A program made the position numbers and the translations under genes. DNA of 64,000 nucleotides. Source: Rhizobium sp. Pop5. Its GTDB lineage: Bacteria; Pseudomonadota; Alphaproteobacteria; Rhizobiales; Rhizobiaceae. How positions within the stretch are numbered: position 1 is the first letter of the stretch; every line of letters begins with the position of its first letter. The notes under the pieces are model-generated. The model saw only the letters and a list, made by a program, of their open reading frames with translations, had not been told where the DNA came from and searched no databases. Of the stretch, positions 15,948 through 39,694 are shown piece after piece. Location: contig NZ_CP099399.1 of NCBI RefSeq assembly GCF_024721175.1, forward strand, positions 2,108,001 through 2,172,000, read 5' to 3'.

Positions 15948-16188
15948 TCAGTAACCCATCAATCCGTCAAACTCTCCTTCAAACCTAAACCTTATGAAAC
16001 TTTCATTCCTTCCAGTGGAAATTTCCTCGATCCTTTTTTCAACAGATGCTTTGTCGGGAAACCACGACACGGAGACCTTGTATTCCCTCAAAATCCTCGC
16101 CGGAACTGTCTCTAAACCTTGCACATATAGTCCCCGTCGACACGCCCATCTCGCGACTCGCTTAAACTCCATTACATCAAGAAACAAC
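15948..16188 (-). pseudogene. NACHT gene fragment 5 (C-terminus)
   Basis: This holds the last 77 codons of the broken gene, ending at the TGA at 15948-15950 only 30 nt from the end of uvrB, which points toward it. After removal of IS66-A the frame reads ...KGRELF then LDVMEFKRVARWACRRG and ends GEFDGLMGY. The region 16181-16188 (GAAACAAC) is one copy of the IS66-A target duplication. The C-terminal domain is not one I can name. Confidence 0.8.
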
Positions 16189-16307
16189 GTAAGCGACAAG
16201 CAGCCCCCGTCTGGCATTGATGGCGGCGATTCCGGTATTGCGGTGAGACGATTCACGAACTGTGAGCTTCTATGTCTGCGCCTAGCTCTGGAACTAGAAA
16301 CTTCCAT

Positions 16308-16658
16308 ATGATCGAGGCCGTTCCGGAACGGCTTGAAGGTGCGCCGCGACAGTTTCGGCGGCGCTGGTCCGACGAATTCAAAGAACGGGCAGTGGCCGAG
16401 GCGATGGAGCCCGGCGCCAGTGTTTCGGCGATCGCACATCGCCTAGAGATACATCCCTCACAGCTATTTGGTTGGCGCCGTGATGCTCGTGACGGACGCC
16501 GATCTGCGCGGCAGGATCAGGCTACGGTATCGAGAACGACGTCAAGTGGTGCGCTTGCGGTGATCGACGTGATCATCGGCGACGTTGTGATCCGGGCTGG
16601 CGCTGGGATCGATGAAGCACACCTGCAACGGGTTATCCGAGCGGTGCGCTCGGCATGA
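16308..16658 (+). CDS. tnpA: IS66 family accessory protein TnpA
   Basis: The 116-residue product has a transposase_8-type helix-turn-helix (RRWSDEFKERAVAEAMEPGA, then VSAIAHRLEIHPSQLFGWRR). The tail VIDVIIGDVVIRAGAGIDEA is typical of IS66 TnpA. An ATG at 16272 in the same frame is an alternative start. It overlaps tnpB by 4 nt (ATGA), indicating translational coupling. It is required with TnpB and TnpC for transposition in this family. Confidence 0.85.
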   Translation: MIEAVPERLEGAPRQFRRRWSDEFKERAVAEAMEPGASVSAIAHRLEIHPSQLFGWRRDARDGRRSARQDQATVSRTTSSGALAVIDVIIGDVVIRAGAGIDEAHLQRVIRAVRSA

Positions 16659-16999
16659 TCCCGTCGAACGTAAAGGTCTTTCTCGCGAGCCATCCAATAG
16701 ACTTCCGCAAGGGGCCAGATAGCTTGCTATCGCTGGTTCGAGATGCCGGCAGCGATCCGTTCAGCGGATCTCTCTATGTCTTCCGGGCGAAGCGAGCGGA
16801 CCGGATCAAGATTGTATGGTGGGATGGATCCGGGGTTTGCCTTTATGCCAAGCGGTTGGAAAAAGCGCAGTTCTGCTGGCCGCGCATTGGCCACAGCCGG
16901 GTCCAGCTCAACCATGCCCAGCTCTTGGCATTGGTCGATGGAATGGACTGGAAGCGGGTTCGCTTTACGCCCGTCAAACCGCCTGAGATTGTTGGGTAA
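16655..16999 (+). CDS. tnpB: IS66 family accessory protein TnpB
   Basis: The 114-residue product is a classic IS66 Orf2 (TnpB). It begins MIPSNVKVFLASHPIDFRKG and contains SGSLYVFRAKRADRIKIVWW and a DGSGVCLYAKRLEK segment. Its start overlaps the tnpA stop (ATGA). Its biochemical role is still unclear, but it is conserved across the family. Confidence 0.9.
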   Translation: MIPSNVKVFLASHPIDFRKGPDSLLSLVRDAGSDPFSGSLYVFRAKRADRIKIVWWDGSGVCLYAKRLEKAQFCWPRIGHSRVQLNHAQLLALVDGMDWKRVRFTPVKPPEIVG

Positions 17000-17073
17000 A
17001 ACCACTGCGGCGAAGTGAATCAGGGGCCTGAAACTACGGGCGGATCACGGCAAAATATGCTCTGATCAGATCC

Positions 17074-18666
17074 ATGACGCGACCCGAGATCGAGCTCCCG
17101 GATGATGTTGAGGCCCTAAAGGCCATGGTCCTTGCCATGGCCGAAAAGGCAGCCCGTGTCGATGCTTTGGAAAAGCAGGTCGATGACCTGGAGGCCCGCA
17201 ATGCTGACGCCGACGAGCGTATCGAGAGGCTGACGCAGATCCTCAAGGCCTTCGATCGGGCTCGCTTCGGACGGCGCTCGGAAAAGCTCGGCGCATCGGC
17301 TATCGACGATGAGCAGCAAGCCTTTGTCTTCGAGGAGATCGAGACCGGCATAGCCGCGATTAAAGCCCAGGTCACGAAAGGCAGCTCGAATACGGATGGC
17401 AAACGCGCACCGCGGCCACGCAAGGGCTTTGCACCGCATCTTGAGCGCGTCGAGGTGGTGATTGAGCCGGAAGAGTTACCGGAACACGCGGGCAAGCAAA
17501 GAATCCTGATCGGAGAAGACGTCTCCGAACGGCTAGATGTCGTGGCGGCGAAGTTCCGTGTCATCGTCACGCGCCGTCCCAAATACGCTTTTAAGAACGA
17601 AGACGGCGTCATCCAGGCTGCGGCCCCGCCACACATCATTGAAGGCGGCATTCCAACAGAAGCACTTCTGGCGCAGATCGCCGTTTCCAAATATGCCGAT
17701 GGTCTACCCCTCTATCGCCAGGAAGCGATCTACGCGCGGGACAAGGTCGAACTCGACCGCAAGCTCATGGCTCAATGGATGGGCAAGCTGGGGTTCGAGC
17801 TCGATATTCTTGCTGATTACATCCTGAACGAGATCAAGAAGGCAGAGCGGATCTTTGCCGACGAAACGACCTTGCCGACGCTTGCACCTGGATCCGGATC
17901 GGCAAAGACGGCGTGGCTATGGGCCTACGCGAGGGACGATCGGACCTTTGGAGGCAGCGGTCCGCCGATGGTGGCCTATCGCTTCGAGGACAGCCGAGCG
18001 ACCGAATGCGTTGCGCGGCACCTCAGCGGCTATCACGGGATCCTGCAGGTCGATGGATACGGTGCCTACAGCAAACTGGTCCGCAAGGATGGAGGCAACG
18101 ACGGCGTTGTCCTGGCTGGCTGCTGGTCACATAGCCGCCGGAAGTTCTATGAATTGCATGTTGCCAAGAGCTCGAAGGTCGCCACAGAGACGGTCGAGCG
18201 CATGGCAAAGCTTTGGGAGATCGAGGAAACCGTTCGAGGCCAAAGCCCTGAAGCTCGTGTCGCGGCGCGACAGAAGAGTTCGGCGGTGATCGTCCGTGAC
18301 CTCTTCACACTTTGGCAGGCGACCCTTCCGCGGGTCTCGGGAAAATCCAAACTCGCCGAGGCTCTCCGGTATGCCATCTCGCGTCGAGACATCTTCGAGC
18401 GCTTTCTGACGGATGGGCGCATCGAGATTGACTCCAACATTGTTGAGCGGGCAATCAGGCCTCAAGCCATCACCAGAAAAAATAGCCTCTTCGCTGGTAG
18501 CGACGGCGGCGGCAGGACATGGGCGACGATCGCGACCCTGTTGCAAACGGCAAAAATGAATACCGTCGATCCTCAGGCTTGGCTGACCCAAACGCTTGAG
18601 CGTCTCGCAAACGGATGGCCCAGCAGCGAGATAGATGCCCTCATGCCATGGAACTACACGGCCTGA
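17074..18666 (+). CDS. tnpC: IS66 family transposase TnpC
   Basis: The 530-residue product has an N-terminal coiled coil (about residues 10-60) and an IS66 N-terminal domain. Its DDE domain has the Asp in IFADETTLPTL, a second Asp in LQVDGYGAYSKL and Glu in NIVERAIRPQ, followed by NSLFAGSDGGG. It ends with the family's short WNYTA tail. It lies 74 nt after tnpB in the same transcription direction. All catalytic residues are present. Confidence 0.93.
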   Translation: MTRPEIELPDDVEALKAMVLAMAEKAARVDALEKQVDDLEARNADADERIERLTQILKAFDRARFGRRSEKLGASAIDDEQQAFVFEEIETGIAAIKAQVTKGSSNTDGKRAPRPRKGFAPHLERVEVVIEPEELPEHAGKQRILIGEDVSERLDVVAAKFRVIVTRRPKYAFKNEDGVIQAAAPPHIIEGGIPTEALLAQIAVSKYADGLPLYRQEAIYARDKVELDRKLMAQWMGKLGFELDILADYILNEIKKAERIFADETTLPTLAPGSGSAKTAWLWAYARDDRTFGGSGPPMVAYRFEDSRATECVARHLSGYHGILQVDGYGAYSKLVRKDGGNDGVVLAGCWSHSRRKFYELHVAKSSKVATETVERMAKLWEIEETVRGQSPEARVAARQKSSAVIVRDLFTLWQATLPRVSGKSKLAEALRYAISRRDIFERFLTDGRIEIDSNIVERAIRPQAITRKNSLFAGSDGGGRTWATIATLLQTAKMNTVDPQAWLTQTLERLANGWPSSEIDALMPWNYTA

Positions 18667-18688
18667 ACGGCCTCAGCTTGCCGCTTAC

Positions 18689-19820
18689 GAAACAACTCTC
18701 GCCCCTTAAGTCGGAGCGAATATGCGACCATCGCGCGAAAGATGTTCTTCTCATTAATGATGCCGATGGTTTCTCCTAGTCCTGACGAAGATAAGTTATT
18801 TAACCCAGCACCATCCGTTAAGAGACGTACGGTCTTCTGAACAAGGTCGGGATCTTTGTAGTTGCCGATGTGGTCCCCTATCATCGCCAAACAGGCAGCA
18901 ACCTTCGTGACAGTTCGCGAATTCCTGAGGGAATTTATCAGGAATGAGCTAATTTCTTTAGTTTTTGCACAAGATTCAGCAAGACTAAAATAAGATATGT
19001 ATAACTCATAAACACTCACATTCTTGCTGTTCAGATGATCTTTATTGCTGGAGTAATAAGTTCCGTCAGAAATGAAGCGCAAGATGCTCGAGCCAATTTC
19101 GCCCTTAACTGACGATAAACCTTCTCGAAGCTTCTCTCGCGTCGAGGCTGGCCCCTCCTCCAAGAACGATACAATCTCAGGATTGACATTTGCGAAGAAT
19201 TTTTCAGCTACATCATATGTAAATCTTACCCTGCTTACATACTCCGCGCATAAAAACTCGATATAGCTCTTATGTGGGAAGTAATAAACTCTTCCTTTGT
19301 AGCCAATCGCCCCATCCATGGCGCGCGACTCTATAACACTACCCAGCAGGTTCCTTTAAGGCTCCTTCTAGGCTATTATTAGCGCGCACCTCTACAGGGA
19401 TAAAGCTCTCCGGTATCTCCTCAGCAGTAAATCTATTTTCTTTCTTTACTGTAAAAAGCCACCAAGCTATATTCTGCATGAAAATAGTTCTGATGTCACT
19501 AAAACCAACAATCGTATCGTTTGATTGACTGCTTATACGACGGCTATTCTTCTTTCCCTCCCGCTTCACAAACTCGTAAATGAATATTTTATAGAGCTCA
19601 TACCTATTGAACATAAGCTCTCTGCCGTAGAATTTCTGCATAACACTACAGAACATCTTAAGCTGAACTGGCCTAGATAACACATCCAATTCATTATCAA
19701 GAACGTAGTCTCTTAGCTTTAGAAGACTTTCAGGAACAGAGCCTTTCTTGGAAATGGCGTTATCTAGATATGTTTCAATCTGGTCCCTTGTAAGCATGCC
19801 GATCTCAACCTTTTCGCTAG
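18689..19820 (-). pseudogene. NACHT gene fragment 4 (helical region), with a 1-nt frameshift
   Basis: The fragment reads from SEKVEIGMLTRDQIETYLDN through WWLFTVKKENRF to ...SLEGALK. The frame then shifts by one base at about 19352-19357 and continues NLLGSVIESRAMDG, YKGRVYYFPHKSYIEFLCAE and on to KGRELF. The pattern FPHKSYIEFLCAEY is the usual end of a NACHT helical module (F-H-x-S-F-x-E-F-x-x-A). The frameshift lies away from any insertion site, so it is a separate lesion or a sequencing error. Confidence 0.8.
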
Positions 19821-19822
19821 GG

Positions 19823-20203
19823 TCAGGACTCATTGATCCAAAAGATGAAAACGGCAGCGAGTGCGATTGCAGACAGGAAGGTGTGAGCACATCGGTCATA
19901 TCTGGTGTGGATGCGTCTCCAGTCCTTGAGGCGTGCGAACAGGTTCTCGATCCTATGGCGCTGGCGATATAGGTGCCGATCGTAGCTGTGCTGGACACGA
20001 TGTTTTGCATGGGGCGGGATACAGGGGGTTATCCCTCGATCTATCAGCGCTTGCCGGAAGGCAGCGGAACTGTAGGCCCTGTCGGCCAGCAGGAAGCGGG
20101 CAGGCGGCAGTTGTTCAAGAACGGCGGCTGCCGTCTTGTGATCGTTGGCCTGTCCCTCGGCCAAATGCAGCAGCAGCGGTCGCCCCTTGTCGTCGCAGAC
20201 CAC
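19823..20203 (-). CDS. IS5-family transposase, downstream frame (OrfB)
   Basis: This frame carries the C-terminal half of the DDE transposase: VCDDKGRPLLLHLAEGQAND, LLADRAYSS with an Asp, and RHRIENLFARLKDWRRIHTR with the catalytic Glu. It is open upstream of 20203 (an IGRSRGGLTTKLQVV stretch) and is probably reached by -1 frameshifting from OrfA near the A-run at about 20261-20266. It is unlikely to be translated alone. Confidence 0.75.
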   Translation of the reverse strand: MVCDDKGRPLLLHLAEGQANDHKTAAAVLEQLPPARFLLADRAYSSAAFRQALIDRGITPCIPPHAKHRVQHSYDRHLYRQRHRIENLFARLKDWRRIHTRYDRCAHTFLSAIALAAVFIFWINES

Positions 20204-20217
20204 CTGCAGCTTGGTGG

Positions 20218-20622
20218 TCAGGCCGCCTCGGCTACGTCCAATACATCGGGATAGAGCCCCTTTTTAAGCAGACTGGCCGCTGTGCGGTGCGCCTTGAGGT
20301 GGGTGGCATCGATCATCAACTTGTCGGTACCGCCACCCTGTGCCGCCAGCTCGGCCAGGATACGATTGAACACGCCCAGCCGGCTCCAGCGGATGAAACG
20401 GTTGTAGATAGTCTTGTGAGGACCATAGCCGGCAGGAGCATCGCGCCAGCGAAGGCCATTGCGGATTACGAACAGAATACCGCTCAGTACCCGCCGGTCA
20501 TCGACCCGCGGTACACCGTGCGATAGCGGGAAATAGGGTTCGATCCGCCGCATCTGCTCCGGCGTCAACATCAGCAAATTATTCAAGGCAGCATCCTCCT
20601 GCCACCTTGAATCATCCATCAA
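20218..20622 (-). CDS. IS5-family transposase, upstream frame (OrfA)
   Basis: The 134-residue frame holds the DUF4096-type N-terminal domain (LTPEQMRRIEPYFPLSHGVP, VLSGILFVIRNGLRWRDAP) and the first catalytic Asp (DKLMIDATHLKAHRTA). It ends shortly after a LLKKG segment encoded by a TTAAAAAGGGG run that is a plausible -1 slip site. Together with OrfB it makes a normal-length IS5/IS427-type transposase. Confidence 0.8.
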   Translation of the reverse strand: MMDDSRWQEDAALNNLLMLTPEQMRRIEPYFPLSHGVPRVDDRRVLSGILFVIRNGLRWRDAPAGYGPHKTIYNRFIRWSRLGVFNRILAELAAQGGGTDKLMIDATHLKAHRTAASLLKKGLYPDVLDVAEAA

Positions 20623-20654
20623 GCCTCAATTCAATAAATTAATGGGTCCTGAGC

Positions 20655-21481
20655 CTAGTTGAGCCAACACGTTGAATAGATTCAAAAACTCGATCTTCTT
20701 CGTCGTCCGAAAAAAAGGAATCTGGGCGCCCTAAAAGAACAACCTTCGACTTACCTTCGAATAGGCACGCCATATCAGAAAATGTATCGTCAAAGCTTTG
20801 CACGTCCATTGCATGGCGCATTTCGTCAAAGCCATCAAGTATAAGAAGAAAATGCCCTTGATGCACCAATTGGATGAAAAGGTTATACGTAAAATTCACC
20901 ACATTAGCGCCACCGTCGTTCCCTTGGAGGGCGGCACAAATAAGCGACTTTGTATCGTGGCGGTGAAATAAATCACCCAACGCAATCCTGATCGGTATCC
21001 GAGCAAATGTTCCGCGCTGGTATTGCGCAGTTAGATGGTTGAGCAGATTGAGACTGAAACTTGTTTTACCAATCCCGTATCCGCCATACACAATCAAAAC
21101 ATTGGTATCTGAACTGAGCCATAATTTTGTAAAATCAAACAACGTCGTTTGAGTATCGAATACATATGACGCCATATAGTTTTTAGATGATTCATGCGTC
21201 TTCCAGGAAGCAATATTATCTTCAAGCACATACGAGAAATTCATCATCGACGTAACAAATTTCTCGAAAGAGATATATTCTAAGTTTTCAAGACCTTTTG
21301 CTGTTTTCGATGGCCGCTGCGACAAATCGTGAGGGCCAATAACAATTAAATAATCAATTTCCTTCCCAAATGAAGGACTATATAGCTGGTATATGCCAGC
21401 AAGCGCCGTCGAATCTAAAGGTTTTTCCCAATCCTTGCATTCAATAGCCACTCGATTTCGGCGAAATCTCGAAATATCTTC
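20655..21481 (-). pseudogene. NACHT gene fragment 3 (nuclease end and NTPase core)
   Basis: This is the largest informative fragment. It opens with ISRFRRNRVAIECKDW, containing E-C-K of the PD-(D/E)XK nuclease, then IYQLYSPSFG and IDYLIVIG. The NACHT core follows, with Walker A VLIVYGGYGIGKTSFSLNLL, Walker B HFLLILDGFDEMRH and a VVLLGRPDSFF sensor-like motif. It is bounded by the IS66-B duplication (21474-21481) and the IS5 duplication (20655-20658). Its AT-rich codon use differs from uvrB next door. Confidence 0.88.
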
Positions 21482-21496
21482 GTAACCTACCGATTG

Positions 21497-21793
21497 TTAC
21501 CGCGGAGATTTCGCTTTGAAGCGGGCGACCAGCTCCTCGTCGTCGACAAAGCAGTCGAGGAAGTCGTTCCATTCGTCGGGTGAACGGCGAGCATAGGAGA
21601 GCATCTGTTCCAGTTCCTCCATGCCGTCGTCTGTCAGCGCGGTGATGGATTCGTCCTCCCCGTTATAGACGCTGATGATGCTGCCGTAGGTCAGATTATC
21701 ATCGTTGGAGATGATTGCCCGGAGAAGCTCCGGATCCTCGCCAAGAATTTCAGCGACATATTTGATCGTGCGGACATAGGTGATTGTTGCCAT
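21497..21793 (-). CDS. IS66-B passenger ORF, small acidic protein
   Basis: The 98-residue acidic protein starts [20 protein letters not shown] and continues DDNLTYGSIISVYNGEDESI and DDGMEELEQMLSYARR. Its ATG overlaps the tnpC stop (TAATG), so it is probably translationally coupled. It ends 15 nt before the IS end. I recognise it only as an IS66-linked hypothetical protein. A role in regulating transposition is a guess. Confidence 0.65.
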   Translation of the reverse strand: MATITYVRTIKYVAEILGEDPELLRAIISNDDNLTYGSIISVYNGEDESITALTDDGMEELEQMLSYARRSPDEWNDFLDCFVDDEELVARFKAKSPR

Positions 21794-23415
21794 TAGGCTG
21801 CCTCGGCGCAGATGCTGGTGACAGGTGACCAATTCCAAGGAAGCAGTTCGTCGAGGCGATTGATCTTGTGGTCGTGGATGCGGTCGAGCAGATCGGCCAA
21901 ATAGGCCTGCGGATCGAGGCCATTCATCTTTGCCGTCTCGATGATCGTCATGGCACGCGCCAGGGTCTCCGCCCCGGTGTCGGCTCCGGCGAATAACCAA
22001 TTGCGTCTTCCAACTCCTATCGGACGCAGGGCTCGCTCGGCGGCATTGTTGTCGATGGCGACACGACCGTCGTCTAGGAACAGGCAGAGCGAGGACCACC
22101 GGCTCAGGCCATACCGGAGAGCGGTCGCCAAATCGCTCTTGCCCGGAATGCGGGTCAGTTGCGCTTCGGCCCAGACGCGGAGTGCTTCGACCTTTGCTTT
22201 GCTGTGCTTCTGACGTGCGGCAAGGCGGATATCGGCAGGTTGACCGGCAATGTCCCGTTCGATGTCGTAAAGCGCGCCGATACGGTCGAGAGCCTCGCGT
22301 GCGATCTCGGATTTGTTCGATGTCCAGATATCATGGAAGTCGCGGCGCCAATGCGCCCAACAGGCTGCCTCTCGGAAGCGCGACGTCCCCTCCGCGCCCG
22401 GTTCATAAAGCTTCCCGTAGCCTTTGTAGCCGTCAGCTTGAAGGATGCCGCTTGCCTGCCGGAGATGACGATGGACGTGTTCTTGCTTCCAGTCCGAGGC
22501 GAAGTAGTAGACCGCCCCAGGCGGGGCAGCACCCGCCCATGGCCGTTGATCTCGGACATATGTCCAGATCCTGCCTTTCTTCACGCCTTTGCCCAATCCC
22601 TTGTCTCGTAGCGAACGATCCAGCACCCGGATCGGGGTGTCATCGGCATGGAGGAGGTCACTGCCCATGATCGCCGCTTCGATCCGCTCGATCAAAGGCT
22701 GAAGCACCTGCATGGCGCGACCGCACCAATCGACCAGTGTGCTATCGGGGATATCGACGCCCATGCGGGCGAAGATCTCGTTCAGACGATAGAGTGGCAG
22801 ATGGTCGTCGAACTTCGAGACCAGGATGTAAGCCAGAAGACCCGGCCCCGCCATGCTGCCCGGTATCGGACGGCTGGGAGCCGGCAACTGCATCATCTTC
22901 TCGCAGCAGCGGCAGGATTTCTTCAATCGAGCGACCTCGATGACCTTCATTTGCGCAGCGATCATGTCGAGGATTTCACTCGCGTCCTCGCCAACAAGGC
23001 GCAGTTCACCACCGCAATCGGGGCAGCAGGTACCAGGATCGAGTTCTTTGCGCTCGCGAGCTGCCTTTTCCGACACCCGCGGACGGCGGCGCATTGTCTT
23101 TTCGGGCGTGCCCGCCACAGGTGCGACAGGCGCGGCCTCATCGACCTCATCAAGCGGCTTGGTGCCGCTTTCCGCCGCGGCGATGAGAAGATCCTCCAGC
23201 GCCAATTCCAGCTGCTGGATTTCCCGCTCGATCTTTTCCGAGGACTTGCCGAAGACCTGTTTCTTCAGCTTGGCGATGCGCAGCCGTAACGTCTGGATCA
23301 ACCGGTCGTGCGCCTGCAACGTCGCCGACATCTTCGCATTTTCCGCCTGCAGGGCGGCGATCATTGCCTTCAGGAAGGCCGGATCATCGGGAAGATTTTG
23401 GCTCGCGTTCGACAT
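21793..23415 (-). CDS. tnpC: IS66 family transposase TnpC
   Basis: The 540-residue product begins [18 protein letters not shown] with a coiled coil ([20 protein letters not shown]). A zinc-binding domain follows ([25 protein letters not shown]). The DDE domain has [23 protein letters not shown] and [10 protein letters not shown], followed by [11 protein letters not shown] start at 23457 is possible but has no better ribosome site. It appears intact. Confidence 0.92.
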
Positions 23416-23477
23416 GAACCTGACTAGCATAAGCCAGGAGGAATATCCATAAAACAAGCAAATTCAGAGGGATAAAA

Positions 23478-23825
23478 TCAACCGACACGCGCCGGCGGGG
23501 CGCCCCAGTTGGGACGTCGCCAATCAATCCCTTCCCACAACATCGCCAGTTGCGCCGTTGTCAGTCGGGCCGTTCCATCTGCTGCTGAAGGCCAGGGAAA
23601 ACGCCCCCTCTGCAAAATTTTGTAATACAGACAGAAGCCCTGGCCATCAAAATACAGAAGTTTCAAACGGTCGCCACGCCTTCCTCGAAAGGCGAAGACT
23701 GCGCCGCCCGTCGGCTTCTGGCGCAATACATCCTGCGCAAGCGCAGCCAGGCCCTCAACTCCTTTGCGCATGTCCGTGATCCCGCAGGCAAGATACACTC
23801 GAACACCGGTTCCTGGTCCAATCAT
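23478..23825 (-). CDS. tnpB: IS66 family accessory protein TnpB
   Basis: The 115-residue product starts MIGPGTGVRVYLACGITDMR and continues with GAVFAFRGRRGDRLKLLYFD and GQGFCLYYKILQRGRFPWP. This is the standard IS66 TnpB pattern. The start codon overlaps the tnpA stop (ATGA, 23822-23825). Confidence 0.9.
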   Translation of the reverse strand: MIGPGTGVRVYLACGITDMRKGVEGLAALAQDVLRQKPTGGAVFAFRGRRGDRLKLLYFDGQGFCLYYKILQRGRFPWPSAADGTARLTTAQLAMLWEGIDWRRPNWGAPPARVG

Positions 23826-24196
23826 GCCGCTTCAACCGCCCGGATGAGCCGCGTCAGGACGGTGGCATCGACGCCGCTATCGAAGCGAAGGCTACGCCCA
23901 TAGTTCAGACGCAACTCGATCAGTGCGGGCTCGCGCGCAACCTCCTCACGCCCGAGCGCGGCGTCGTCCATGGCGGACGTATCTATGGGCAGGAAGACCG
24001 TATCGGCCGTGGGCGGCAACAAACCCTTCTTCTTCAGCTCATGCCGCCAGGCGTAAATCTGCTGCCGGGTCACATCGTGCCGATGGGCAACCTCAGTAAC
24101 CGTCGCACCGTCGAGCCCCACCGACATGACAACGTCGAGCTTCTTCTCGTCACCCCAACGCCGACGACGTTCCTGACCAAGAATTTCCACACGCAT
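23822..24196 (-). CDS. tnpA: IS66 family accessory protein TnpA
   Basis: The 124-residue product has the transposase_8-like helix-turn-helix: RRRWGDEKKLDVVMSVGLDG, ATVTEVAHRHDVTRQQIYAW and RHELKKKG. A C-terminal VDATVLTRLIRAVEAA tail follows. It starts about 100 nt inside the right inverted repeat and is the first gene of the minus-strand IS66-B operon. Confidence 0.88.
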   Translation of the reverse strand: MRVEILGQERRRRWGDEKKLDVVMSVGLDGATVTEVAHRHDVTRQQIYAWRHELKKKGLLPPTADTVFLPIDTSAMDDAALGREEVAREPALIELRLNYGRSLRFDSGVDATVLTRLIRAVEAA

Positions 24197-24295
24197 CCCA
24201 TACCTCGCCTAAGATACGTCGCTAACGACGTCGTTAATGACGTGTCTTAGGCCATTAAGGCGCTATTCGGCAGGCGGTGCCAATCGGGTGCTTAC

Positions 24296-24345
24296 ATATC
24301 TTCTTCATAATATATATCCGCAGTGGTTGCGATCAGGCCGTATTC
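24296..24345 (-). pseudogene. NACHT gene fragment 2 (50 nt between two insertion sequences)
   Basis: Only 50 nt of the host gene remain between IS66-B and the IS256-like element, and both ends are target duplications (ATATCTTC and CCGTATTC). Spliced in place it encodes GLIATTADIYYEED, supplying D67 of the PD-(D/E)XK nuclease site. Its perfect fit in frame is the strongest single check on the reconstruction. Confidence 0.85.
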
Positions 24346-25770
24346 GGTCGTGTCCCTACAGATGGTGTAGCTCGGCGGTAGCGAAGCCGCTCGCGAGCGC
24401 GCCCTCAACAGCGCGGTAGTGAGCGGGCGGCGAAGCGGTGGTCATCGATGTTCTTCAGTAGGGTTGGGTTGCTGACACCAACCTGATTCGAAGGAACCAC
24501 CGATGACCGACGACATGATGAACCTGCGTGCGCTCGTGGAGAAGTCCCCCGACGCCGATCTTTTGCGCGAGATGATCGGCTTTGCCGCCGAGCGGCTGAT
24601 GGAGCTGGAGGTGGGCGCTGCCACCGGTGCCGGCTATGGCGAGAAGAACCCGCTGCGGACGGCCCAGCGCAACGGCTACCGCGAGCGGGATTGGGAGACG
24701 CGCGCCGGAACCGTCGAGCTGCGCATTCCAAAGCTCAGGAAGGGCTCTTACTTTCCGGGCTTCCTGGAGCCGCGGCGCATGGCCGAGAAGGCGCTGACGG
24801 CGGTCATTCAAGAGGCCTATGTGCAGGGATCTCGACCCGCTCGGTCGACGATCTGGTCAAGGCCATGGGTATGAGCGGCATCTCCAAGAGCCAGGTCAGC
24901 CGGCTGTGCGAGGAGATCGACGGAAAGGTCAAGGCCTTCCTCGAGCGGCCGATCGAGGGCGACTGGCCATATCTGTGGATCGATGCCACCTACCTAAAGG
25001 TCCGCCGGGGCGGCCGCATCGTCTCCGTTGCCGTGATCATCGCCGTTGGTGTCAACAACGACGGTCGCCGCGAGGTGCTGGGCATGGAGGTCGGCACCTC
25101 CGAAGCCGAGCCGATCTGGACCGAGTTCCTACGCAAGCTGACTCGCCGTGGCCTCAGAGGCGTCAAGCTGGTCGTCTCCGACGCCCACGAGGGCCTCAAG
25201 GCCGCCGTCACCAAGGTGCTAAACGCAACCTGGCAGCGCTGCCGGGTCCACTTCATGCGCAACGTTCTCGCCCACGCCGGCAAGAGCGGTCGGCGTGTCG
25301 TCTCCGCCTTTATCGCCACCGCCTTCGCCCAGGAGACGCCGGAAGCCGCAAGCACCCAATGGCGCGCCGTCGCCGACCAAATCCGCCCGAAGGTCCCGAA
25401 GCTCGCCGCCATCATGGATGATGCCGAAGAAGACGTTCTCGCCTACATGACCTTCCCGAAGGAGCACCGCGCCAAGCTGCACAGCACCAACCCGATCGAG
25501 CGCCTCAATGGCGAAATCAAGCGCAGGACCGAGGTCGTCGGCATCTTCCCCAATGACGACGCCATCGTCCGCCTCGTCGGCGCGATCCTGCTCGAGCAAA
25601 ACGACGAATGGGCTGTCCAACGCGCCAGATACATGACGCTGGAAACCATCAGCCAGATGAGCGATGATCCGCTCATCAGCCTGCCAGCCGTGGCGCGCTG
25701 ATCGTCCCGGCCCATGCCGGAGAACGCGGCGACCAAAGCCGCCACCTACACCACTCCCTGGGACATGATC
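24346..25770 (+). mobile_element. IS256-family insertion sequence with a frameshifted transposase
   Basis: The ends GGTCGTGTCCCTACAGATGG (24346) and, reading inward from the right, GATCATGTCCCAGGGAGTGG (25770) are imperfect inverted repeats that continue into GTGTAG. The 8-bp duplication CCGTATTC is perfect, at 24338-24345 and 25771-25778. The element is 1425 nt and carries one transposase gene on the plus strand. Confidence 0.93.
24503..25701 (+). pseudogene. IS256-family transposase, frameshifted
   Basis: The first frame runs [20 protein letters not shown] to the segment ending IQEAYVQG and then goes out of frame. The second frame continues [40 protein letters not shown] and DWPYLWIDATYLKVRRGG (first Asp). 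It goes on to VVSDAHEGLKAAV (second Asp), the CRVHFMRN motif and HSTNPIERLNGEIKRR (Glu). A single missing base at about 24827-24829 (GGGATCTCG) explains it. Otherwise the protein would be a normal length of about 400 residues. Confidence 0.85.
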
Positions 25771-25949
25771 CCGTATTCAATTTCAACCGCCTTGAATTGA
25801 GTTTTAAGTAAGCCGTATAGCTTGTCTCTTAAGCTTGAACCCGGAAGCTTTTCTTTCGCCTTTTGGGTTCCCGTCCCTTTTATTTTCTTTAGAGATCTTC
25901 TTTGCTTTTGCAACATATCACAGACTGCCCTATCGAAACGACTCTCCAT
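25771..25949 (-). pseudogene. NACHT gene fragment 1 (N-terminus)
   Basis: The start codon at 25949 opens a basic, helical N-terminus, MESRFDRAVCDMLQKQRRSL, that reaches LLKTQFKAVEIEYG at the IS256 junction. An in-frame TGA immediately precedes the ATG, which fixes the start, but there is no clear ribosome site. The IS3 element sits 24 nt upstream, so the native promoter is now about 1.3 kb away. Confidence 0.75.
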
Positions 25950-26050
25950 TCAAGCTATTTCGCAAAGATTTACAATATGAACTGCCCCCACTTTCGACCG
26001 GACACTCAGCATAAGCAGGAAGGCTCAAGCACAGGCTTGAGGATAAGCTT

Positions 26051-26440
26051 ATGTCTAACGAGTTTCGACAGGTTGACTTGATGATCGGTGACGTCCGGCG
26101 GCGACGCTGGACAACGGAACGCAAACTGCAGATCATCGAGGAAAGCTATGCCGCCGGGGAGACCGTTTCCTCCGCGGCGCGGCGGCATGGAGTTGCGCCA
26201 AATCTTCTGTATCGCTGGCGTAGGCTCCTGAGCGAGGGAGGTGCGGTGGCCGTGGATTCTGACGAGCCAGTGATCGGCAATTCCGAGGTGAAGAAGCTGG
26301 AAGATCGAGTGCGCGAGCTTGAGCGCATCCTCGGGCGCAAGACGTTGGAGAACGAGATTCTCCGCGAAGCTCTTTCTAAAGCCCACTCAAAAAAACCGAT
26401 ATCGCGGCCGATCTTGTTGCCGAAGGACGGTTCCCGATGA
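26051..26440 (+). CDS. IS3-family transposase OrfA
   Basis: The 129-residue product has the Tnp-1 helix-turn-helix (RRRRWTTERKLQIIEESYAA, HGVAPNLLYRWRRLL) and a leucine-zipper region (VKKLEDRVRELERILGRKTL, ENEILREAL). GAGGAT precedes the ATG at 26051. The stop overlaps the OrfB ATG (ATGA). Confidence 0.9.
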   Translation: MSNEFRQVDLMIGDVRRRRWTTERKLQIIEESYAAGETVSSAARRHGVAPNLLYRWRRLLSEGGAVAVDSDEPVIGNSEVKKLEDRVRELERILGRKTLENEILREALSKAHSKKPISRPILLPKDGSR

Positions 26441-27264
26441 AGACCGTGGCTGACGTCCTGGGCGTATCGCGGTCCAATCTCGTGGAGCGCCTTAAAGGCA
26501 AGTGCAAGCCGCGTGGATCATACCTCAAAGCGGACGATGCCGAGCTGCTGCCTGCCATTCGTAAACTCGTGGATGCTCGGCCGACCTATGGCTATCGGCG
26601 GATCGCTGCCCTTCTCAACAGGCAGCGGCGAGCTGCTGATCTGCCCGTCGTCAATCGCAAGCGAGTTCATCGCATCATGGCCAATCACGCTATGATCCTT
26701 GAGAAACACACGGCGGTGCGAATAGGCCGTGTCCACGACGGCAAGGTCATGGTGATGCGGTCTAACCTGCGCTGGTGCTCGGATGGCCTTGAGTTCACTT
26801 GCTGGAATGGCGAGGTGGTCCGTCTCGCGTTCATCATCGATGCGTTTGACCGGGAAATTATCTCATGGGCAGCCGTCGCCAATGCCGGGATATCCGGCTG
26901 CGACATTCGAGACATGATGTTGGAGGCCGTCGAAAAGCGCTTCGGCGCAACCAGCGCCCCGCATGCAATAGAACATCTATCTGATAACGGCAGTGCATAC
27001 ACCGCGCGGGAGACCAGGCTGTTTGCCCAAGCCCTCAACCTGATCCCATGCTTCACGCCCGTTGCCAGCCCACAATCGAACGGCATGTCTGAAGCCTTCG
27101 TCAAAACCTTGAAGCGGGACTATATACGCATCTCACCCATTCCGGACGCCGATACAGCTCTCCGGAAGATCGACGGATGGATCGAAGACTATAATGAAAT
27201 CCATCCACACTCAGCGCTGAAAATGGCCTCCCCAAGGGAGTTCATCAAAGCATTGTCTCAATAG
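26437..27264 (+). CDS. IS3-family transposase OrfB (integrase core)
   Basis: The 275-residue product contains an rve integrase core with the catalytic triad: Asp in LRWCSDGLEFTC, Asp in HLSDNGSAYTA and Glu in QSNGMSEAFVKTLKRDY. An upstream HTH_21 region (RPTYGYRRIAALLNRQ) is present. It is overlapped by OrfA by 4 nt. It appears intact. Confidence 0.92.
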   Translation: MKTVADVLGVSRSNLVERLKGKCKPRGSYLKADDAELLPAIRKLVDARPTYGYRRIAALLNRQRRAADLPVVNRKRVHRIMANHAMILEKHTAVRIGRVHDGKVMVMRSNLRWCSDGLEFTCWNGEVVRLAFIIDAFDREIISWAAVANAGISGCDIRDMMLEAVEKRFGATSAPHAIEHLSDNGSAYTARETRLFAQALNLIPCFTPVASPQSNGMSEAFVKTLKRDYIRISPIPDADTALRKIDGWIEDYNEIHPHSALKMASPREFIKALSQ

Positions 27265-27391
27265 CTGATCTGTCCGGCGAAATGGGGGGCACTCCACAAT
27301 ACAAGATTGCACCAAGCGTAAGTCTCCTAGTCGCGCGGTTATTTTGATGAAAACGAGAGTCCCCGCCCAAGCACCAGTTCATCGCTTAGTC

Positions 27392-27603
27392 AAAGTTGCA
27401 TGCGACGCATTCATCCTCGGCGCGTCGGTCCACCCCGGCATGTGCCGGCAAGGCATCGCCACACGGCTGGTCAGGGAAGCCACGCGGATTGGCAGCGAGC
27501 GTGGCGCCGCGCGGCGGCATGTCAATTTCGAACGCACATGACCTCCTTCTATCGCGCCCGCGGCTTCCGGTTCGCAGAAATGGCCCTTCTCAAACTGCCC
27601 TAG
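27392..27603 (+). pseudogene. GNAT acetyltransferase relic, frameshifted
   Basis: The segment encodes DAFILGASVHPGMCRQGIAT, RLVREATRIGSERGAA and, after a frame change near 27525, TSFYRARGFRFAEMALLKLP and a stop. It aligns along its length with the C-terminal half of the intact acetyltransferase at 29834-30220 (HAFILDTSVHPEMRRQGIAT). The N-terminal half is missing, so this is a decayed paralogue or an old partial duplication. Its truncated edge is close to the IS3 target site. Confidence 0.7.
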
Positions 27604-27612
27604 CCCGCCCGC

Positions 27613-28347
27613 TCACCCGCCACCAACTCTCCCCACCCCCTCCACCAGCGCAAAATAAACCCGCTCAACCCGACAGGCAGCACTCCTAGCGCTCGCCTCA
27701 TACCCCGCCGCCGGCCAGCCGCGCCTGGGGCTGCCGTCCGCCGCGATCAGCCAGTACCAGCGTTCGTCAGAGCCGTTGAGATCGATCTTGAAGATCCGCC
27801 CCATGCAGGCATCGCCGTGGAAGCCGATGAAATCGTCGCCGGGCTTTTCCTTCCAGGCGTGGCGCCATTTGCCCCTGGGTCTCTCGTCGCTGAGGATCAT
27901 CTCCCAGCTCTTCCAGCCATTATAGTCGGACTTGGCCGTCAGCGAGCCGTCATAGGGTTTCGGCTCGAAATGCAGGCAAGCTTCGAGAAACACGGCGACG
28001 GATTCGCAGACGGCACGCCACGTCCCGTCATCGCGTGCGGTCAGGTGGTAGGCGGTCTCGTCAGGCAGGTTGCGTAGCGCCTGGGCGATTGCGGAGGCGA
28101 CGCCTTCCCGGCTCGCAGGCTCGCCCCGCGCGGTGATCACGAGATAGGTGCAGAGATAATCAGCCGCGTCCCGGGCGATCGGTTCGATGACATGAAGCTG
28201 TCGTCGCTTGCCGATCGCATAGCCGCCGAAATCCCGGAGCCGGCGCTGGGACTGTTTGCGGAAACTGTTGTTGAGGAACGATCTCAGAAGCGTTCCGGCA
28301 TCATCTCGCACGCGTCGTCCTCTCCTCGTGAGGATGTTTTGCCGCAT
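27613..28347 (-). CDS. Hypothetical protein
   Basis: The 244-residue product has no motif I can assign. The N-terminal third is basic (LLRSFLNNSFRKQSQRRLRD). The middle is helical with FLEACLHFEPKPYDG and WKSWEMILSDERPRGKWRHA. The C-terminus has DDFIGFHGDACMGRIFKIDL followed by a WYWLIAADGSPRRGWPAAGY pattern. That last part looks like a small beta-rich module seen in rhizobial hypothetical proteins. The ATG at 28347 is chosen over a TTG at 28392 that lies inside a palindromic repeat. Confidence 0.55.
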   Translation of the reverse strand: MRQNILTRRGRRVRDDAGTLLRSFLNNSFRKQSQRRLRDFGGYAIGKRRQLHVIEPIARDAADYLCTYLVITARGEPASREGVASAIAQALRNLPDETAYHLTARDDGTWRAVCESVAVFLEACLHFEPKPYDGSLTAKSDYNGWKSWEMILSDERPRGKWRHAWKEKPGDDFIGFHGDACMGRIFKIDLNGSDERWYWLIAADGSPRRGWPAAGYEASARSAACRVERVYFALVEGVGRVGGG

Positions 28348-37263: not shown

Positions 37264-38694
37264 CTAGAACACCTTTCCCTCACCACCCTCATCAAAGATC
37301 GGATTGAGAAACACCACCCGGTCCTCGCCGCCCCTGCGGTCGCGGCTGGCGGTCCAGCCGAGTTTCTTCACGATGCGGCCGATGCGGCCGGCGTGGCGCC
37401 AGTCGGCGTCTTTCGCCGCTATGCCGAGGCTCTTCAAAATCTCGTGCTGGGAAAGCGATCTCTCGCCTTTCAGTGTCGGAACGATCACCTCGACCCAGAC
37501 GTCGACATCGGTGCGCTTCTCCTGCTCGGCGACGACGGCCTGCTGCTCCTCCTCCTGCACCCACCAGGGCGTCTTGGCCTTGTAGAGAGCCACGGCCTCC
37601 GCCCAGAGCTGGTCACGGTCGGCGGCGATCGCTTCGATGTCGATGCGCCCGACCGTCAGCGGCCAGAAGCTGCGCCCGCCTGTGGTATCTTTGAGATAGG
37701 GATTGCCGTCGGGACTGATCGTGCCGCAGAGGCAGACGCGCCGCGGCGCCTCGACAACCGACCGGCCGTAAGGCGGGCGGAAGCGATCGGTCTGCTTGCG
37801 CAGGAATTTTTTGACCGCGCTGGTCTCCGAGGCGTTGAAGCGATGCATTTCCGCAACCTCCAGGCCCCAGATGCCCTGCATCTCCATCATCGCGTCCTTC
37901 GAGCCGATGTCGGACAATTCGTCGGTGAAGAAATCGTCGCCATAGAGCATGCGCACGGCGGTGGATTTCCGCGCCCCTTGCGGCCCTTCGAGGATCGGCA
38001 TCGTATCGACCTTGCAGCCCGGCTGCAGCCCGCGTGCCACGCTCGATATTAGCCAGCGCAGGCCGACAGTCCGGGCGTAGGGCGTATCTTCGATGCCCAT
38101 GTAATAAGTCAGCCAGTTGTGCAGCCGCGGCCTGCGATCCCAGACGAGCCCCTCGAGATAATCGGTCAGCCGGTCGAAACGCGCATGTTCGGCCACCGTC
38201 TGGATCACCGGGGCGATGGTCGCGACCTTCGGCGTCATGTCGTTCGCCTCCAGCCACATGACGGCCTCGCTGTAATCGCGATCCTGCAGCAGGCGTTCGC
38301 GCCAGCGGCCCCTGGCCGCGTCCCAGGGCGGCCGGCGCATCAGCACGACGCCCATCTTGAACGCGTCGAAGGCGAAGATACCCGAGAGATCAGGGTGATG
38401 TTCGAGGAACAGCGCCCAGTTGCGCGTGGCGCCTGGCTTGATCCTGCCCTTTTCACTGCGCAGCAGCTCCATCTGCCAGCCATTGTCGGCCGCGATGGTT
38501 TTGCCGGCGGCCGCTGGCCGAGCCTGGCGCGCCTTCGGAGCCGCGGGCGGCGTCCATGGCCGCGCCGCTGCCTGGATGAAGCCGGAGAGCTCGTCCTCGC
38601 TCCAGCCGTCGCCGACGGCATCGGCCGCATCCCAGCCCTTCGGGGGCACGCGCCCGGAAAGCCAGTCGGCATAGAGATAGGGAGGGGATGTCAT
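37264..38694 (-). CDS. VapE-family phage NTPase/helicase-like protein
   Basis: The 476-residue product carries the virulence-associated E (VapE/DUF5906-like) P-loop domain: Walker A EGPQGARKST (237-245), GIWGLEVAEMHRFNASETSA, then RPPYGRSVVEAPRRVCLCGT with TTGGRSFWPL. Such proteins replace helicases or origin-activating NTPases in phage replication modules. Gene order (primase, then VapE) supports this. The start at 38694 lies 17 nt after the primase stop, so they are co-transcribed. Confidence 0.88.
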   Translation of the reverse strand: MTSPPYLYADWLSGRVPPKGWDAADAVGDGWSEDELSGFIQAAARPWTPPAAPKARQARPAAAGKTIAADNGWQMELLRSEKGRIKPGATRNWALFLEHHPDLSGIFAFDAFKMGVVLMRRPPWDAARGRWRERLLQDRDYSEAVMWLEANDMTPKVATIAPVIQTVAEHARFDRLTDYLEGLVWDRRPRLHNWLTYYMGIEDTPYARTVGLRWLISSVARGLQPGCKVDTMPILEGPQGARKSTAVRMLYGDDFFTDELSDIGSKDAMMEMQGIWGLEVAEMHRFNASETSAVKKFLRKQTDRFRPPYGRSVVEAPRRVCLCGTISPDGNPYLKDTTGGRSFWPLTVGRIDIEAIAADRDQLWAEAVALYKAKTPWWVQEEEQQAVVAEQEKRTDVDVWVEVIVPTLKGERSLSQHEILKSLGIAAKDADWRHAGRIGRIVKKLGWTASRDRRGGEDRVVFLNPIFDEGGEGKVF

Positions 38695-38711
38695 GAGTAC
38701 TGCGCGCCGCC

Positions 38712-39608
38712 TTATCGAACGACGCCGAGGACACGATAGCTGCAGCCGAGGCCGGTGAGGATCGTGCCGATATCGTCAGCGGCTTTCATGCCGGCGATGA
38801 CGCCGGTTTCGGGATGCGGCCGATCGGCATCCGGCCACATGAGGATGTTGCGGCCGGCAAGCGGCGACCAGTCGGCATGCTTGACCCCTTGCGTGCCGCC
38901 GGGCCAGGAAACCACGGTGCGCCCAGTGGCCGCCGACAGCGCGTCGCGGCACTTCTCTCCCTCGACGACGAGAACCGCCCTCGCCGCGCCGAGCTGGCCG
39001 AGCCCATAGAGCGGGCGCGGTTTGGGAAAGGGAAAGCGGCACCAGGTCTCGGTACCATCAGGCAGACGCACCCACATGACCATCGGCGTTTCCTTGCCGC
39101 CCCCGCCAAGCTCGTGGCGCAGGACATGGCCGATCAGCCCGCCCTCCTGCCCGCGATAGGGAAAGACCATCGACGGGGCGAAAGAGCCCCACTCGGCTCT
39201 TTCGCCCCGTCGCTTCGGATTGTAAAGCCGCACCGGCCTGCCGCATTCGATGGATGCGGCAGGCGGCGTCAGTGGCACGATCCCGGCATAGACGTCGAGC
39301 GCCACCGTTCTCGGCAGCGCAGGATCGGGCGCTGCAAAGCGGCCGCCGAGGATCTCGATCGCTCCCGCGAGGTCGACGCCTTTGATTTTCCTGACGAAAT
39401 CGATCACGTCGCCATGCGCGCCGCAGCCGAAGCAGTGGAAACGCTCGACATGGTCCTTCCCGGGAAAAATGGTGAAGGAGGGTGTCGCCTCGGCATGGAA
39501 GGGGCAGCAGGCGACGAATTCGCGCCCGGCCCGCTTCAGCGCCAGCCCGTGGCGAGCCGCCTCCTCGGACAGGCAGATATCACGCCTGACACGTTCGACT
39601 TCGGTCAT
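38712..39608 (-). CDS. Phage DNA primase (CHC2 zinc finger plus Toprim)
   Basis: The 298-residue product has an N-terminal CHC2 zinc motif (ACCPFHAE..., then FHCFGCGAHGDVIDF; ligands C35, H38, C59, C62). A Toprim domain follows, with VLVVEGEKCRDAL (Glu) and NILMWPDADRP (DxD). It would synthesise primers for prophage replication. It is shorter than DnaG because the middle RNA-polymerase region is reduced, as in phage primase-like proteins. CAGGGG precedes the ATG at 39608. Confidence 0.88.
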   Translation of the reverse strand: MTEVERVRRDICLSEEAARHGLALKRAGREFVACCPFHAEATPSFTIFPGKDHVERFHCFGCGAHGDVIDFVRKIKGVDLAGAIEILGGRFAAPDPALPRTVALDVYAGIVPLTPPAASIECGRPVRLYNPKRRGERAEWGSFAPSMVFPYRGQEGGLIGHVLRHELGGGGKETPMVMWVRLPDGTETWCRFPFPKPRPLYGLGQLGAARAVLVVEGEKCRDALSAATGRTVVSWPGGTQGVKHADWSPLAGRNILMWPDADRPHPETGVIAGMKAADDIGTILTGLGCSYRVLGVVR

Positions 39609-39694
39609 ACCAGACCCCTGATCTGATCGTTGTGATCGCCGCAACATTTGGCGGGTGCAAGCTCGGGCGCGGAATTCAGTTCACTTGCCCGCCG

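Follow-up and report, generated by a model that had tools for sequence, protein, structure and literature searches.

The gene fragments and the insertion elements

The window analyzed here is a stretch of 64,000 nucleotides from Rhizobium sp. Pop5 (contig NZ_CP099399.1, positions 2,108,001 to 2,172,000; G000:C2:2108001-2172000), whose genome comprises 6.74 Mb in 5 contigs. Downstream of uvrB lies a minus-strand gene that is separated into five fragments by four insertion sequence (IS) elements (Table 1), and the intact form of its product joins a PD-(D/E)XK nuclease to a NACHT nucleoside triphosphatase (NTPase). Subtraction of the four elements and one copy of each target duplication from the 10002 nt of this locus left 2401 nt, which reproduces the arithmetic of a preliminary description that was made from the sequence alone.

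The pieces were never joined in our analysis; each was placed singly by tblastn on intact relatives, which had been found without the joined product. Fragment 3 matched 5 of 148 genus genomes at E ≤ 0.001, comprising the window itself, two strong matches, and two weak ones. The strong matches, G126 (55%) and G013 (54%), contain uninterrupted frames of 825 and 809 amino acids (aa), respectively. The G126 protein was compared with the 7995 best-sharing candidates of a large protein collection, which yielded 82 homologues at E ≤ 0.001. In a second search seeded with P0032 (794 aa), the closest relative of the gene, P0029 (74%) was the only other protein of comparable identity. P0032 aligned with all of the pieces in the same order and on one strand, with 45–80% identity. 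All 82 homologues matched at least one piece when searched against the window by tblastn, and 75 of them matched at least three, for which the pieces were collinear and on the minus strand in every case (75/75). The five fragments are parts of one minus-strand gene, and a chance stitching of unrelated fragments is ruled out by this collinearity. The preliminary description had proposed just such a gene split by four elements, and the two findings it named as contrary evidence were not encountered: no uninterrupted orthologue showed a different order among the 75, and the fragments did not match unrelated proteins.

Table 1. Gene fragments and IS elements of the locus, with the tblastn placement of P0032 residues.
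Feature	Position	Strand	Remarks
Fragment 1: start codon and N-terminal part of nuclease domain	25773..25949	-	ATG at 25949; P0032 residues 16-49 at 25874-25773, 76% identity, E 2e-9
Fragment 2: short piece with catalytic aspartate (TTADIYYEED)	24304..24345	-	P0032 residues 48-89 at 24345-24250, 45% identity, E 0.001; weak alone, the true match being the first ~15 residues
Fragment 3: ExK nuclease motif and NACHT Walker A and Walker B	20660..21481	-	P0032 residues 62-335 at 21481-20660, 80% identity, E 1e-141
Fragment 4: remaining NACHT module and beginning of C-terminal region, frame break inside	18693..19815	-	P0032 residues 338-492 at 19815-19351, 70% identity, and 494-716 at 19349-18693, 62% identity; joint E 2e-141
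Fragment 5: C-terminal end and stop TGA	15948..16187	-	P0032 residues 716-794 at 16187-15951, 59% identity, E 2e-25
IS256-type (Transposase_mut), 1425 bp	24346..25770	+	8-bp target duplication CCGTATTC
IS66-type element 1, 2814 bp	21482..24295	-	8-bp target duplication ATATCTTC
IS5-type (DUF4096 transposase piece), 834 bp	19821..20654	-	4-bp target duplication CTAG
IS66-type element 2, 2500 bp	16189..18688	+	8-bp target duplication GAAACAAC
IS3 family (rve integrase core, HTH_21), fifth element	~25978..27296	+	4-5-bp target duplication ((C)AATA)

The transposases of the four internal elements were assigned by Pfam to Mutator/IS256, IS66 (two), and IS4/5. The element ends are supported by copies elsewhere in the genome, which number five at full length for the IS256-type element, four for IS66-type element 2 (identical in three cases, with a single mismatch in the fourth), and one, identical, for the IS5-type element; no other full-length copy of IS66-type element 1 was found in the genome. 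In the window IS256 copy, one nucleotide present in the five other copies is missing, which breaks the transposase frame. The fifth element, of the IS3 family, lies on the 5' side of the gene, 28 nt from the start codon, and was missed by the preliminary description; three other copies with ~100% identity occur in the genome. The IS5, IS3, and IS66-2 types recur in a second IS-rich region (G000:C2 ~4363431-4391453), where an nSTAND1 NTPase gene (L004; Pfam nSTAND1 5.7e-26) is located close to them.

Nuclease and NACHT domains

The PD-(D/E)XK motif is present across the pieces, with the catalytic D in fragment 2 and the ExK in fragment 3, and the corresponding core fold was found in the N-terminal domain of the intact protein. 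The D was conserved in 48/48 aligned relatives, and E and K in 47/48 each. Adding 10 to the P0032 numbering reproduces the nuclease residues D67, E85, and K87 assigned previously, as well as the positions of Walker A (204-211) and Walker B (283-291). The further assignment of Q103 to the active site has to be withdrawn, since Q occurs in this column only in the window copy and in 0/48 relatives, 28 of which have N. The domain resembles the Mrr-like restriction endonuclease domain (PF04471) in its N-terminal position, its D and ExK residues, and its PD-(D/E)XK-type fold, but differs in that the Pfam model detected distant homologues only and not the close relatives P0032 and P0029.

Walker A (GxxGxGKT) and the NACHT Walker B (hhhhDGFDE) are both uninterrupted in fragment 3 of the window, and their core residues were invariant in the 48 aligned relatives. 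The central module exhibited a NACHT fold including the helical and winged-helix parts, and matched the NACHT domains of NLRs over 352 residues. A sequence search of the PDB returned one chance-level match only. In the profile search that had been recommended for nuclease–NACHT proteins, distant homologues matched Mrr and NACHT, with P0064, P0071, and P0113 above the Pfam NACHT cut-off, whereas the window piece and P0032 remained below it.

Genomic setting and distribution of the relatives

The gene pieces have a guanine–cytosine (GC) content of 42.4%, compared with 64.4% for uvrB and 60.8% for the window. A uvrB match was obtained in 59/60 genomes, from which 30 loci were taken; one of them was the window, leaving 29 relatives. 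Their similarity to the window beyond uvrB ends at ~15910 or just short of the uvrB end, and in 3/29 loci (L036, L041, and L043) it resumes at 27612-27629 after 78, 87, and 91 nt. None of the 29 loci, of which ~1.5 kb beyond uvrB was covered in most, showed a P0032 match, and no uvrB was present in the 7–20-kb stretches around the ten nearest named relatives. These results indicate that the gain of the gene here, or its loss elsewhere, was not tied to uvrB. A conserved uvrB-linked defence site was dropped because none of the 29 loci matched, and the earlier expectation that other strains would have an uninterrupted orthologue past uvrB is not supported. Next to the IS3 element, positions 27344-27567 appear by eye to hold the remains of an acetyltransferase gene, and DNA resembling it follows uvrB in some relatives (L037 and L042).

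When P0032 was searched against 394 family genomes, which were drawn evenly and may exclude G013 and G126, only weak NACHT-like matches in 3 genomes were obtained outside the window. Plasmid matches were found in 13 of 72,556 records, all with <60% identity. A tblastn search with P0032 against 50,697 phage records gave no match, and an origin from a mobile integron or phage was dropped on that ground. Positions 37267-39647 of the window contain primase-like and, by eye, VirE-type genes, which suggest a phage-related or integrative stretch.

Of the 10 nearest named loci, 5 have known defence genes close to the intact relative. These are Hp1-3 and PD-T7-5 in L061 (scanned as L060), BovA, GajA, and GajB in L062 (scanned as L059), Gabija in both L063 and L065, and type IV methyl-directed restriction with PDC-M36A in L068. 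In L059/L062, the intact NACHT gene is located within ~10 kb of BovA and the Gabija pair (GajA and GajB). No known defence gene was detected among the neighbour open reading frames (ORFs) scanned in L064, L067, L069, and L070. The scan covered 29/54 predicted neighbour ORFs of L063–L070 at E ≤ 1e-15, and ten proteins of L059 and L060 at the different threshold of E ≤ 1e-3. As a control, 10 window genes were scanned, of which the primase-like gene alone gave a match. This gene matches the PADLOC RT_UG29/DnaG-like models and looks like a case of a shared domain rather than a defence system; the L066 match was left out of the count because it is to the same models.

State of the window copy

The reading frame shifts between 19351 and 19349, as is evident from the two P0032 segments of fragment 4. 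Between these segments P0032 has a codon (one residue) where the window has one base, so that a loss of two bases fits equally well as a gain of one. The break located near 19353 by the preliminary description is present in the sequence as assembled. One extra base is not established as its cause, and the resulting figure of exactly 800 codons, once offered as support, carries no evidential weight. A programmed frameshift was dropped, as the frame is continuous in the relatives (slippery runs were not looked for). Read in the frame of the relatives, the pieces give 800 codons with no further in-frame stop, which indicates that the breakage is recent relative to point decay. Since no single fragment holds the catalytic D together with the ExK, the window copy should be inactive, and since no piece in this strain carries the whole nuclease and the switch, it should confer no protection. 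The window copy is very probably a pseudogene of the ordinary sort, broken recently, and belongs to a family of defence proteins that is recognizable though uncatalogued.

Several observations weigh against this interpretation. By Foldseek alone, the nuclease domain had no match at E ≤ 0.001 (best 1.6e-3). The Pfam NACHT score was 23.9 bits for the window piece and 23.8 bits for P0032, compared with a cut-off of 26.7 bits, and no model of PADLOC (2023 version, E ≤ 0.001) or NCBIfam claims the NACHT protein; such profile results also support the earlier expectation that the gene would be missed, as far as profile libraries are concerned. Half of the ten neighbour loci have no known defence gene, and among the others L062 and L063 are not independent because they share nearly the same nuclease domain, both with Gabija. 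Finally, both the break in the reading frame and the missing base of the IS256 copy could be assembly errors.

An assembly error of this kind would leave the IS elements alone to break the gene. We regard it as a possible but rather unlikely explanation: the frame break is the sole one in the pieces, and the neighbouring IS256 copy also lacks one base compared with its five other copies, whereas the window IS5 and IS66 type 2 elements are identical to their copies, bar the single mismatch in one of them.

It is less easy to accept that the gene was costly, as a self-triggering nuclease might be, and that the repeated IS hits were selected instead of accumulating passively after the first; we consider this improbable. 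Four insertions, described as different IS types, within 2.4 kb, the fifth element just upstream, and the lack of other in-frame stops would agree with it, as would the bNACHT25 point mutant H506L, which is reported to be active without a trigger (PMC12169576). A single hit would however have been enough, and once a gene is dead, further insertions cost nothing. The IS families were chosen for lying here, so that their clustering is no fair test, and insertions may simply favour low-GC DNA of this kind. A literature search for defence systems of Rhizobium inactivated by IS elements yielded only unrelated papers. If the loss by repeated IS insertion was selected, it would allow the cost of NLR-like immunity in bacteria to be gauged in nature. 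We likewise have little confidence in the broader proposal that the ~100 homologues, largely alphaproteobacterial, make up an uncatalogued family of single-gene Mrr–NACHT immune switches outside the named bNACHT clades, of which the window copy was lost by repeated, possibly selected, IS insertion as a costly gene was shed. A limited literature search turned up no alphaproteobacterial Mrr–NACHT family.

The broken copy is ordinary as genome decay. It illustrates that an NLR-like immune gene can hide from annotation when no fragment passes the profile cut-offs, and that defence genes of the nuclease–NACHT kind come and go in rhizobia. The layout is already known, and the family is unlabelled by PADLOC (2023), by NCBIfam, or, for its close members, by Pfam above the cut-off. 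The intact relatives are the useful objects, which would be undercounted in surveys relying on PADLOC, NCBIfam, and Pfam NACHT.

Proposed function and comparison with known systems

In STAND NTPases, the C-terminal part acts as the sensor and the central part as the switch, while the effector is N-terminal. The low-GC gene for a protein of ~800 residues was probably acquired between uvrB and its neighbour, and was later broken by the four internal IS insertions and one small indel, with the fifth IS at its 5' side. Judging from the intact relatives, its product would have worked as an immune switch of three parts encoded by one gene: a phage-linked signal would be sensed by the C-terminal helical region, upon which the central NACHT NTPase would exchange nucleotide and oligomerize, and the N-terminal Mrr-like PD-(D/E)XK nuclease would then cut DNA and halt the infection, probably together with the cell. 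The gene is probably an anti-phage defence gene. The same order of C-terminal sensor, central NACHT switch, and N-terminal effector is given for such proteins in PMC12169576, where bNACHT25 and bNACHT32 are described to pair a PD-(D/E)XK DNase with NACHT and to defend against phages, and a D48A mutant to lose the defence. Of the earlier proposal that the protein has the design of NLR-like anti-phage proteins, the nuclease–NACHT layout stands, as it equals that of bNACHT25/32; the anti-phage function itself is what we infer.

The intact protein might alternatively be a restriction-type or plasmid-exclusion ATPase that uses NACHT as a motor or regulator and does not sense phage. The Mrr-like N-terminal domain and the sporadic occurrence of the relatives, also on plasmids, speak for such a role, which we nevertheless judge improbable, as the extended match of the central module to NLR NACHT domains and the layout shared with bNACHT25/32, which defend against phages according to PMC12169576, both oppose it.

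Compared with the animal NLRs (NOD2, NLRC4, and NLRP3), the central module has the same NACHT fold at 11–15% identity, a nuclease takes the place of CARD/PYD, and no leucine-rich repeats were listed by Pfam in the proteins scanned. The STAND nucleases of the Avs (AVAST) systems, such as Avs4, differ in size, with ~800 residues here versus 1534 for the Avs4 chain, and no PADLOC model, of Avs or any other family, matched the two full relatives (L006 and L007 proteins) at E ≤ 0.1; at this threshold P0001 gave a weak PDC-S20 match only. The closest likeness is to two clade 6 proteins from E. coli, bNACHT25 and bNACHT32, from which the window copy differs in being broken, the comparison being one of described layout and not of sequence. 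At the C-terminus, where bNACHT25/32 have the NCH1 domain in that description, the relatives scanned showed no Pfam domain at E ≤ 0.1. The pairing of a PD-(D/E)XK effector with a NACHT module, as given for clade 6 in PMC12169576, is present here. As described there, bNACHT25/32 and the intact relatives share a single protein with an N-terminal PD-(D/E)XK DNase, a central NACHT, and a C-terminal helical region, together with an early catalytic aspartate, which is D48 in bNACHT and D57 in P0032.
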